Assembly (NCBI RefSeq): GCF_009617895.1
Contig: NZ_BLAW01000001.1
Location: 3,711,001-3,775,000 of the forward strand
Direction of reading: 5' to 3'
Source of the DNA: Prolixibacter sp. SD074
GTDB taxonomy: Bacteria > Bacteroidota > Bacteroidia > Bacteroidales > Prolixibacteraceae
Length of the DNA stretch: 64,000 bases
Positions 36,357 to 39,565 of the stretch are shown here, one piece after another (the stretch's first letter is position 1; the number at the start of each line of letters is the position of its first letter). A program made the position numbers and the translations under genes. Under the pieces are notes generated by a model that saw only the letters and a list, made by a program, of their open reading frames with translations, did no database searches and was not told the DNA's origin.

Positions 36357-36646
36357 GTCAAACTGTTTCAGAACAAGACAGTCATGTTTTCATCTGAACG
36401 AAATTAAGTAATTAATTACATGCCTAAGATAGGAATGATAAAGAAAGGTTGAATTCAATTCTTCCGATAAAGATTAATTAACATATTTTAACGTGCTGTT
36501 TGGCAGGTGCTTTCGAAAAATGTGAAGCATCGCATAGATTTTTGAGTAAATTGGCAGGTACTTGTTTTGTTGAACAGATAGAATAACGAATATCATTGGA
36601 AACGGAAAGCTACATTCTTATTTCCGGTAAACGAAACTGATTTGAT

Positions 36647-38860
36647 ATGAAAAGTCTCCGCCGGAAGATTTGCATAATGGAAAAGTTTACCCGGGTGTAT
36701 CAGGAATTTCGGACAGCTGGCCCTTCGGTTAGGGAGTTGCGTTGTCTGGAGGCATTGTTTCCGGCCATATTGCAGCCTGTTGGTAAAACCGATCGGTTTG
36801 TAGGACGGATTGAACCATTGCCAATAGGTATTTCCATTTATGAAGGTTCTTTGGGATATTTTTATGATGAAGCGAGGATGAATACCTTGCTGGAACATCC
36901 GCAACTAACTTTTAAGCTTGAATTACGCCTCAGAACACTGGAGGCTTTCTGGCAGGGCGAAAATTCGGTTGCTAAAATTAAATCGGCACAACGGCAGGCT
37001 GAAGTAAAGTATACTCCTGATAAAATCAGGCGTTTCCGGAATCACGGTGTTATTGAGCCATACTACCGCATAAACGGCATCAATCCGGATTATTCAAAGT
37101 TATTACAAAAAGGAATTCCCGGACTTCGCGAGGAGTTACAATCGGTTGATTTAGCGGAAGCAGATGATGGAAAACGGGCAATGGTGACGTCCATGCTGGG
37201 TGCGTTGGATATCCTGGTCCGGGTTATTAATCAATATGCTGTTTACACCCGCGATTTAAGCGATGAGTGTATAGATGAAGAAAGCAAAGCGGAATTGTTG
37301 CACATGGCAACGGCATTAGAAACCATATCCGATTCGAAGCCAACCACATTCCGCGAAGCTGTTCAGTTGGTGCATTTGTTTGCCCTGTTGTCGGGGACCG
37401 GAAATTATGGCCGCCTTGATGTTTGTCTTGGCGATTTTCTGGTATGCGATTTAGAAGACGGAGAGCTGACAGAAGAGCGGGCACATCAAATGATGGAATC
37501 GTTCTGGATGCTGATTAATGCGCGGCAATTAGGTGTTGAAGGAAGAATGGTGGTTGGCGGGAAAGGGCGCCCTAACGAAGAAGCAGCCGACAAGTTTGCT
37601 CAACTCGCGCTACAAACGAGCGCCTTGGTTAAAGAGGTGTCGCCACAAATCTGTCTTCGGTATTATGACGGACAGGATGAGACGCTTTTTACACAGGCTG
37701 CAGGTTTATTGTCGGAAGGAAATATTAATCCGCTGCTTTTCAGCGACTCCACGTTGCTGCCATACATTGAACAGAATTATGCTGTTTCGGAAGAAGACGC
37801 TGAACAATATATTCCCGATGGGAATGGTGGATTTGTGCTTTGGCACCGAAGTATTGGCGGGCCTGCCGGTGCTATTAACCTGTTAAAAGTACTTGAGCTT
37901 TCGATAAACAGCGGACGTGATTTTATTTCCGGGACTGAAGTGGGGCCCGACTTTGGAAAATTCGCCGAATTTCATAACTTGGATGACATATGGGATGCCT
38001 TTTCCCGGGAGGTGGAATATTTTGTAGAAGCCCTGGTCATCCAGGAGGAAATATTATTCACTGTTATCAACCGGGAGGCATCCTTTATTTATGCTTCCCT
38101 CCTGCATGACCAATGTATATCTGATGGACATTCCATTTTTGATGGTGAGATCCCCCTTTTAGGAAGTAGGGTAGAAGTGGCCGGCGCAAAAAATGTTGGT
38201 GACAGTCTGGCAGCAATTGATTCAGTGGTTTTCCAGGATAAATTAATTTATCCGGTTAAGTTGAGTTACATCATTGGCGAAAATTATGAGGGCTTTGAAA
38301 GTGAAAGGGAACTGCTGTTGAAGTCACTTTATCGGCGGGATATCCGGAATAAATCCGATGATTTTATCCGGAGGATAGATCAGCTATTGTCGAATATAGG
38401 CTTCGGGTATGCAAATAAATCAGGCATGCATTACTTTGCCCATTGTCCGGCAAACGGAAAAATAAATATGACTTTTGGCCGAAAAACAGCTGCCAGTGCC
38501 GATGGGCGAAAAGGGATGGCTTTGCTGGATTGTTCGCTGAGCCATCGTATCATTCTACAAACTCACCCTGAAAAAATTACTTTTCCCGATACGGAAATTC
38601 TTCAACGAAATGGAATGCATCTTTTTCAGGTAAGTAAAATGCTGGACGTGGGGCAACAACTTACCATTATTGAGGCATTAAGGCAGCTGGGAGTTGGGCA
38701 AATGGTGGTAAGCGTGTTGGATCGTGACACATTGGAGGCCGCTCGCCGTGATCCGGAGAACTATCGTAACGTTATGGTACGTCTGGGGTCGGGGACTGTC
38801 CGTTTTGTGGAACTTGATGCCGATACGCAGGAGCAAATTATTATCCAGCTCGATGACTGA
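36647..38860 (+). CDS. Pyruvate formate-lyase-like glycyl-radical-enzyme homologue lacking both catalytic residues
   Basis: A 737-residue protein with the ten-stranded-barrel PFL/GRE fold. Motifs include FREAVQLVHLFALLSGTGNYGRLD, GGPAGAINLLKVLELSINSG, VGDSLAAIDSVVFQDK, FGRKTAASADGRKGMA, VVSVLDRDTLEAARRDPENYRNVMV. Active members have a Cys in a GC-x-E loop; here it is PDGNGGF with Asn393. The C-terminal radical motif RVxGYxxRF is RLGSGTVRF, placing Ser715 where the radical Gly belongs. No radical SAM activase is nearby. ATG 36677 is an alternative start. Likely a pseudoenzyme; its role is unknown. Confidence 0.85.
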   Translation: MKSLRRKICIMEKFTRVYQEFRTAGPSVRELRCLEALFPAILQPVGKTDRFVGRIEPLPIGISIYEGSLGYFYDEARMNTLLEHPQLTFKLELRLRTLEAFWQGENSVAKIKSAQRQAEVKYTPDKIRRFRNHGVIEPYYRINGINPDYSKLLQKGIPGLREELQSVDLAEADDGKRAMVTSMLGALDILVRVINQYAVYTRDLSDECIDEESKAELLHMATALETISDSKPTTFREAVQLVHLFALLSGTGNYGRLDVCLGDFLVCDLEDGELTEERAHQMMESFWMLINARQLGVEGRMVVGGKGRPNEEAADKFAQLALQTSALVKEVSPQICLRYYDGQDETLFTQAAGLLSEGNINPLLFSDSTLLPYIEQNYAVSEEDAEQYIPDGNGGFVLWHRSIGGPAGAINLLKVLELSINSGRDFISGTEVGPDFGKFAEFHNLDDIWDAFSREVEYFVEALVIQEEILFTVINREASFIYASLLHDQCISDGHSIFDGEIPLLGSRVEVAGAKNVGDSLAAIDSVVFQDKLIYPVKLSYIIGENYEGFESERELLLKSLYRRDIRNKSDDFIRRIDQLLSNIGFGYANKSGMHYFAHCPANGKINMTFGRKTAASADGRKGMALLDCSLSHRIILQTHPEKITFPDTEILQRNGMHLFQVSKMLDVGQQLTIIEALRQLGVGQMVVSVLDRDTLEAARRDPENYRNVMVRLGSGTVRFVELDADTQEQIIIQLDD

Positions 38861-38938: not shown

Positions 38939-39565
38939 ATGACCCAGGATACTTTCCCATCCAAATTACTTGAAAATGCGGTAATGGAATTTGCCAAGCT
39001 TCCGGGTATTGGAAAAAAAACAGCACTACGGTTGGTCCTTCATTTGCTTAAGCAGGAAAAGGAGGAAGTGCATCGTTTCAGCAGTTCCATTACCCGCTTA
39101 CGTGATGAAATCAGGCATTGTAAAATTTGCCGGAATATTTCGGATACCGAAGTTTGCAATATTTGCAGCAATAATTCGCGCGACCATGCAACCATTTGTG
39201 TAGTGGAGAACATACGAGATGTGATGTCCATCGAAAATACACAGCAGTATCACGGTGTTTTTCATGTATTGGGTGGCATTATCTCGCCAATGGATGGAGT
39301 CGGGCCTGCTGATATCGAGGTTGATTCATTGATAAAAAGGGTCAACGGGGGCGATGTAAAGGAGATTATTTTGGCATTGAGTACCACGATGGAAGGGGAT
39401 AGCACAAACTTCTATATATTTAAGAAATTAAAAGATTCTGGAGTGAAAATTTCCATGCTGGCGCGGGGCGTTTCCATCGGCGATGAGCTGGAGTATATTG
39501 ATGAAGTTACGCTGGGCCGTTCGCTTGTCAACCGCCAGTTGTTTGAGCAGTCCCTCGGGCAATGA
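38939..39565 (+). CDS. recR: Recombination protein RecR
   Basis: Works with RecF and RecO in loading RecA at gaps. The 208-residue protein has the HhH region ([20 protein letters not shown]), a four-Cys zinc finger ([16 protein letters not shown]), and a Toprim domain ([33 protein letters not shown]). TATCTTTG at 38910-38917 is a candidate -7 element. Confidence 0.97.

Follow-up and report, generated by a model that had tools for sequence, protein, structure and literature searches.

We suggest that the protein encoded at 36647-38860 of the window (the whole 64-kb stretch of Prolixibacter DNA analysed here) is a neofunctionalised pseudoenzyme with the fold of the glycyl-radical enzymes (GREs), working as a binding or scaffold protein, and we give this reading a probability of roughly 0.6. 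The full-length GRE pseudoenzyme of the original prediction is supported by the loss of catalytic residues, the predicted fold, the lack of an activase (in the window and, over the TIGR02494 cut-off, in the genome) and purifying selection on the gene. Glycyl-radical catalysis is very unlikely, judging from the residue loss and established GRE chemistry. In GREs, an activase places a radical on a Gly residue, where it is stored, and the thiyl radical of a Cys attacks the substrate; loss of the Gly removes the site where the radical is placed and stored, and loss of the Cys removes the means of delivering it, so catalysis of this kind should not be possible. The gene, its altered sites and its flanks are listed in Table 1.

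Table 1. Window positions of the pseudoenzyme gene, its altered sites and the flanking features.
Feature	Positions	Strand	Basis
Upstream intergenic stretch, alignable in four genomes with mean column identity 88% (the aligned piece includes 14 coding bases)	36380..36646	.	Alignment
CDS of the GRE-fold pseudoenzyme, 737 aa	36647..38860	+	ORF, domain and structure-sequence matches, orthologues at 83-92% identity in three other Prolixibacter genomes
Asn393 codon (AAT), replacing the thiyl-radical Cys in the loop PDGNGGF	37823..37825	+	Sequence and profile alignments, four genomes
Gly395 codon, replacing the usual Glu; GC-x-E changed to GN-x-G	37829..37831	+	Alignments, four genomes
Residues 555-690, most of the other lost GRE-conserved positions: PKYGND block, N-P-G-D-G-TA-NS loop, G683	38309..38716	+	Conserved-column comparison
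Residues 625-660, rebuilt loop, including both stretches under pLDDT 50	38519..38626	+	AlphaFold model compared with the model of an intact relative
Ser715 codon (TCG), replacing the radical Gly; VRLGSGTVRF, compared with VRVGGFSARF	38789..38791	+	Sequence and profile alignments, four genomes
recR-like gene, next downstream in all four genomes	38939..39565	+	Conserved neighbour order

The forward-strand frame starts with ATG and encodes 737 amino acids followed by a stop codon; it had been predicted to be open and full-length, which the ORF analysis confirmed, and it is open in four genomes. The host genome of the window is a single contig of 3.96 Mb with an estimated completeness of 97.65%. 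The protein is a GRE homologue along its length, with 249.6 bits for PF02901 (cut-off 24.3). PF01228 (Gly_radical) gave 21.2 bits on the protein itself, slightly below the cut-off of 22.2, and 23.4 bits, slightly above it, in the genome search. Sequences of 33 distinct solved structures matched the protein (E up to 0.01), glycerol dehydratase being the top match.

Two alignments, one with 11 other sequences and one with 88, revealed the replacement of all three residues: N393 stands in the column of the thiyl-radical Cys, G395 in that of the general-base Glu and S715 in that of the radical Gly, and these residues are fixed in 4/4 Prolixibacter genomes examined. The three losses claimed at the outset were thus borne out, those of Cys and Gly by both sequence and profile alignments, and in neither kind of alignment are the tips of the loops occupied by Cys and Gly. 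In a profile built from the window protein together with its relatives, the relatives' GCGE and VRVGG motifs land on GC-x-E and VRVAG of the solved glycerol dehydratase 1r8w; the MAFFT alignments and this profile alignment together rule out a register error in the motif assignment. The features of an active GRE, a thiyl Cys at the loop tip and a radical Gly in the C-terminal R-V-x-G motif, were both missing from this protein in all four genomes. By the genetic code, AAT is two changes away from any Cys codon, and TCG and TCC are each two changes away from any Gly codon. These codon distances, together with the same residues in four genomes, exclude chance or sequencing error.

Among other GREs, loss of the Cys was found in none of the 127 rows examined (118 distinct by the last 250 residues) and loss of the Gly in none of the 125 rows reaching it, two rows (L108, L134) ending before the Gly. 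The Glu is absent from some GREs that keep Cys and Gly, including the PFL-like L188, which has CC, and L169-L172, which represent a type of GRE seen in four genomes of the same family as the window and have GCNWM instead of GC-x-E. When short or weak GRE matches of the family were examined for natural loss of Cys or Gly, the latter four seemed by pattern to be without the C-x-E motif, and the alignment showed that Cys and Gly are kept and the Glu alone is missing. Because some intact families vary at this position, the Glu carries the least weight of the three signs, and its loss alone is not diagnostic.

According to structure prediction, the protein retains the fold of the GREs. The AlphaFold model of the window protein (51 sequences) has a pLDDT of 89.1 and a pTM of 0.90, with stretches of pLDDT below 50 only at residues 632-636 and 641-644. 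For the intact relative L054, predicted likewise from 48 sequences, the pLDDT is 94.2 and no such stretch occurs. The most changed part of the model seems to be the loop around 625-660, and its low confidence may partly reflect the presence of only three pseudoenzyme rows. Structure prediction and comparison with GRE structures had been proposed as a check; the best Foldseek match of the model was 1r8w (E 3.7e-38, TM 0.84), to which VIA-align gave Z 33.9 with rmsd 2.8 over 693 residues. Other structures scored Z 25.0 (pyruvate formate-lyase, PFL) and 17.6-18.6 (class III ribonucleotide reductase, RNR); the RNR large subunit has a radical-enzyme barrel fold related to that of the GREs. In barrel-domain homology, by its PF02901 score, and in predicted fold, by its TM value to 1r8w, the window protein belongs with the PFL-like GREs.

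Loss of conserved residues is concentrated in the C-terminal part. We used 116 columns at least 90% conserved across 48 intact relatives, in an alignment with three pseudoenzyme rows; the window protein retains 79 of these columns, and 34/116 are lost in all three pseudoenzyme rows. Only 2 of the 41 conserved columns in residues 1-380 are lost, against 32 of the 75 after them (Fisher p about 1e-5), and for columns invariant in the relatives the losses are 0/15 and 14/32, respectively (p 0.0017). When the intact relatives were left out one by one, at most 15/120 columns were lost (median 5). The loss is thus more than ordinary divergence, with the N-terminal part staying and the part with the Cys and Gly loops eroding. 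The Cys loop of the window protein retains the H-R-S of many intact relatives and the NLL stretch after it.

The gene is under purifying selection and is not decaying. Six pairs among the four genomes gave dN/dS of 0.058-0.111 (Nei-Gojobori), between the values for recR (0-0.048) and for the neighbouring glycosyltransferase gene (0.077-0.144). For gcvH and pulA no pair could be formed, since the stretches compared contain no match to them. These values refer to four close genomes, with a dS of 1.2-1.4, near saturation, between the two species pairs. Variation among the four genomes affects 144 of the 737 residues, and 311 codons differ synonymously only. Within the genus, the Cys and Gly loops have 6 variable residues of 53 versus 10.4 expected (P 0.08), a non-significant trend to higher conservation. 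A homologous fold, missing key catalytic residues and selection on the gene, by which a pseudoenzyme is recognised, are found together in the window protein.

Orthologues are confined to three other Prolixibacter genomes among the 140 genomes of the family searched: Prolixibacter bellariivorans (92% identity), P. denitrificans (84%) and a fourth genome (83%). The next best matches in the family, in eight genomes beyond the genus, have 32-34% identity; an order-level search (393 genomes, E up to 1e-40) added four further matches at 30-33%, and a GTDB 220 scan with two peptide patterns gave none above 35% outside Prolixibacter among the best 80 of 289 matches. The intact GREs of Prolixibacter itself are only 24-26% identical to the window protein. 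Phylogeny was suggested as a way to see whether the loss defines a clade, and it does, since the four Prolixibacter proteins group together as a single clade within the intact GREs. In the careful tree of 75 rows (both trees were built with LG+G4), the four pseudoenzymes group with 34 intact-type relatives (support 100/100) and are nested inside them (99/97), on a stem of 1.37 that some branches of other GRE types equal or exceed in length. The 88-row quick tree gave one clade with a stem of 1.62, the longest branch printed, short tips and an SH-aLRT of 89 for the nesting. From the trees and the selection analysis, we infer a single loss with rapid change on the stem, followed by constraint.

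The main rival to a binding role is a non-radical enzyme, in which the barrel pocket and the rebuilt loop would do acid-base chemistry (for example, as a lyase, isomerase or hydratase) with new residues. Purifying selection along the chain, the H-R-S and NLL residues kept in the Cys loop and the barrel, predicted to be intact, are all consistent with such an enzyme. We regard it as possible but doubtful, because a large share of the conserved columns of the C-terminal part (32/75) is lost, the loop 625-660 is poorly ordered in the model, the four close sequences name no candidate new catalytic residues, and the neighbouring genes (recR-like, glycosyltransferase, GNAT-like) suggest no pathway by eye. 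That a GRE barrel was turned, via its rebuilt pocket, into a new oxygen-insensitive non-radical enzyme or a ligand receptor is a tentative idea to which we give rather low odds.

The original prediction also stated that no radical SAM activase lies nearby, and a motif scan (ORFs >150 aa) and phmmer with one activase (ORFs of at least 100 aa) found no activase homologue across the 64-kb window. With one phmmer query, no activase was detected at the pseudoenzyme locus in any of the four genomes, and the same query gave one match at every one of four control loci, which carry intact Prolixibacter GREs. An activase-like gene was present within 3 kb at 66/81 intact-type loci and at 0/2 pseudoenzyme loci (phmmer, one query, 83 loci scanned, a set that contains two pairs of identical proteins, L091/L131 and L102/L103). 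The 17 loci without one include the two of Prolixibacter, L061, which has an activase 4.9 kb away, several near a contig edge, and the intact-type loci L079, L089, L114 and L118, which have none despite 10 kb on both sides. A missing neighbour activase is not diagnostic alone, since 15/81 intact-type loci are without one within 3 kb.

We extended the search to the whole genome of the window (an estimated 97.65% complete, so that absences from it are relative) with TIGR02494, the sole activase profile searched, which scores over its cut-off for two tested activase-like genes beside intact relatives; the best match was 44.8 bits against a cut-off of 174.35. The radical-SAM activase expected of an active GRE was found neither at the locus in the four genomes nor, by TIGR02494, in the window's genome. 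The two best radical-SAM matches there were rejected as GRE activases, since from their sequences they look like proteins of the AmmeMemoRadiSam type; for the one scanned, Pfam gave no more than Radical_SAM. In the same genome, searches for another GRE (PF02901, Gly_radical) and for NrdD (NRDD) gave no match. The gene is thus retained in a genome in which the searches for GRE, NRDD and TIGR02494 revealed no such radical machinery.

A regulator of canonical GREs, acting as an activase decoy or as a dimer partner that damps radical enzymes, would have potential targets in the three other Prolixibacter genomes, in each of which one or more GREs, judged intact from their Cys and Gly patterns, lie beside an activase away from the pseudoenzyme locus. 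We consider such a role improbable: the window's genome keeps the gene, yet no other GRE, NrdD or activase over the cut-off was found in it, and the low identity to the intact Prolixibacter GREs also argues against it.

Downstream of the gene, the order recR-like, glycosyltransferase, GNAT-like (names assigned from the sequences) is common to the four genomes. Three Prolixibacter recR loci have a GRE match upstream, versus none of 26 recR loci of other genera (about 1.49 kb covered in 25 of them and 303 bases in one). The gene therefore probably came to its place next to recR through an insertion in Prolixibacter, and we draw no functional link to recR. The upstream intergenic stretch may hold the promoter. 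Further upstream, gcvH lies beside the gene in the window only, with no match in the corresponding stretches of the three other genomes, which have a small divergent gene (exported and Spy-like by eye, no Pfam match at 1e-5) in front of the pseudoenzyme gene. At window positions 36380-36410, a stretch from near 36380 aligns with the start of this small gene, which is otherwise unmatched in the window; with gcvH there instead, this marks a rearrangement breakpoint. The ends of the window's contig (1-20000 and 3915001-3935000) are a mutual repeat (99.6% identity, 56 gap openings in 20 kb). This repeat is probably the overlap of a circular sequence left untrimmed, and its many indel differences mean that at least one contig end carries assembly errors.

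These indel differences, together with the loss of three key residues, could speak for a decaying remnant or an assembly artefact, to which we nevertheless give very little credence: the frame is open in four genomes with the identical three replacements in each, and with the low dN/dS these shared replacements rule out decay in the main. Equally hard to credit is a GRE that stays active through radical residues at other positions (one of the glycines on either side of Ser715, Gly714 or Gly716, and another of the nine cysteines such as 490 or 600), since Cys and Gly are canonical in every other GRE row reaching them, C490 is conserved beside the true Cys in intact relatives too, and the window's genome has no activase over the TIGR02494 cut-off.

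We therefore return to the binding or scaffold protein as the preferred reading. Radical chemistry would have been abandoned on the long stem of Prolixibacter and the protein kept for a binding job. GREs are dimeric, and the barrel scaffold, probably dimeric as well, would most likely bind a small ligand in its rebuilt pocket or expose a surface for a protein partner. Pfam matches of the genes around three intact relatives (GH130 phosphorylase, GH94 family, PTS, sodium:solute symporter and sulfatases) suggest sugar or polyol metabolism for these three, and by analogy a sugar- or polyol-like ligand of the window protein would be our guess.

Two loci of intact relatives are described here in their own right. 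In a Prolixibacteraceae MAG (L087, 6678-19699), the intact relative is clustered with a sodium:solute symporter, a GH130 phosphorylase, an activase and two sulfatases, a hint of a sugar or polyol substrate for the intact GRE clade. In Citrobacter sp. Awk 4 (L104, 4396-13143), an intact GRE of the same clade and its activase lie a few kb downstream of genes that we presume to be recR- and htpG-like, and the GRE adjoins a GntR/UTRA regulator and a PTS. Although Prolixibacter has a similar arrangement, the position close to recR is probably a coincidence.

GREs are normally recognised as radical enzymes by their fold, Cys and Gly, and a naturally conserved full-length member without Cys or Gly would show that the scaffold can outlive the chemistry. 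Searches of an open-access library turned up no described GRE pseudoenzyme, and the papers combining 'pseudoenzyme' and 'glycyl radical' had the former word in reference lists only. For studies of structure and ligand binding, the protein would serve as a natural GRE free of radicals, and it is a warning that annotation at the family level by PF02901 can name a protein for a reaction beyond its ability.

Among comparable systems, the closest sequences, of similar length, belong to an intact clade of PFL2/glycerol-dehydratase-type GREs (GCGE, VRVGGFSARF; no function found here), with 28-35% identity to the window protein, mostly near full length, in the best 80 of 289 matches. Its hosts include Bacillota, Bacteroidota, Ignavibacteriota, Planctomycetota, Lentisphaerota, Citrobacter and others, and the Prolixibacter protein nests among its members. 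This clade keeps Cys and Glu, the Gly where the row reaches it, and mostly an activase nearby (66/81), whereas the window protein is without all of these. The best solved-structure match of the model is the B12-independent glycerol dehydratase of Clostridium butyricum (1r8w), closely followed by 1,2-propanediol dehydratase (5i2g, 5i2a; Z 33.8, TM up to 0.83). The glycerol and propanediol dehydratases have about 20-22% identity to the window protein, in which the Cys, Glu and Gly of 1r8w are without counterpart. The spare-part cofactor GrcA/YfiD shares the C-terminal glycyl-radical domain, but GrcA is this domain alone with the Gly kept, a small stand-alone protein, whereas the window protein has 737 aa, lacks the Gly and scores 26-29 bits against GrcA cut-offs of 145-170 (NCBIfam). 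The PFL C418A/C419A variant is reported to be catalytically inactive, to keep Gly734 and still to take the glycyl radical (PMC12338860); it is a laboratory mutant with its Gly, while the window protein is natural and is missing the Gly too. The inactive RNR large-subunit homologues of betaherpesviruses, such as HCMV UL45, have lost most catalytic residues and bind proteins instead (PMC5469499). They are viral and of another family, the window protein being a bacterial GRE homologue; the example of these viral R1 proteins shows that a fold related to that of the GREs can be repurposed, and the bacterial counterpart proposed here is testable in P. bellariivorans and P. denitrificans.
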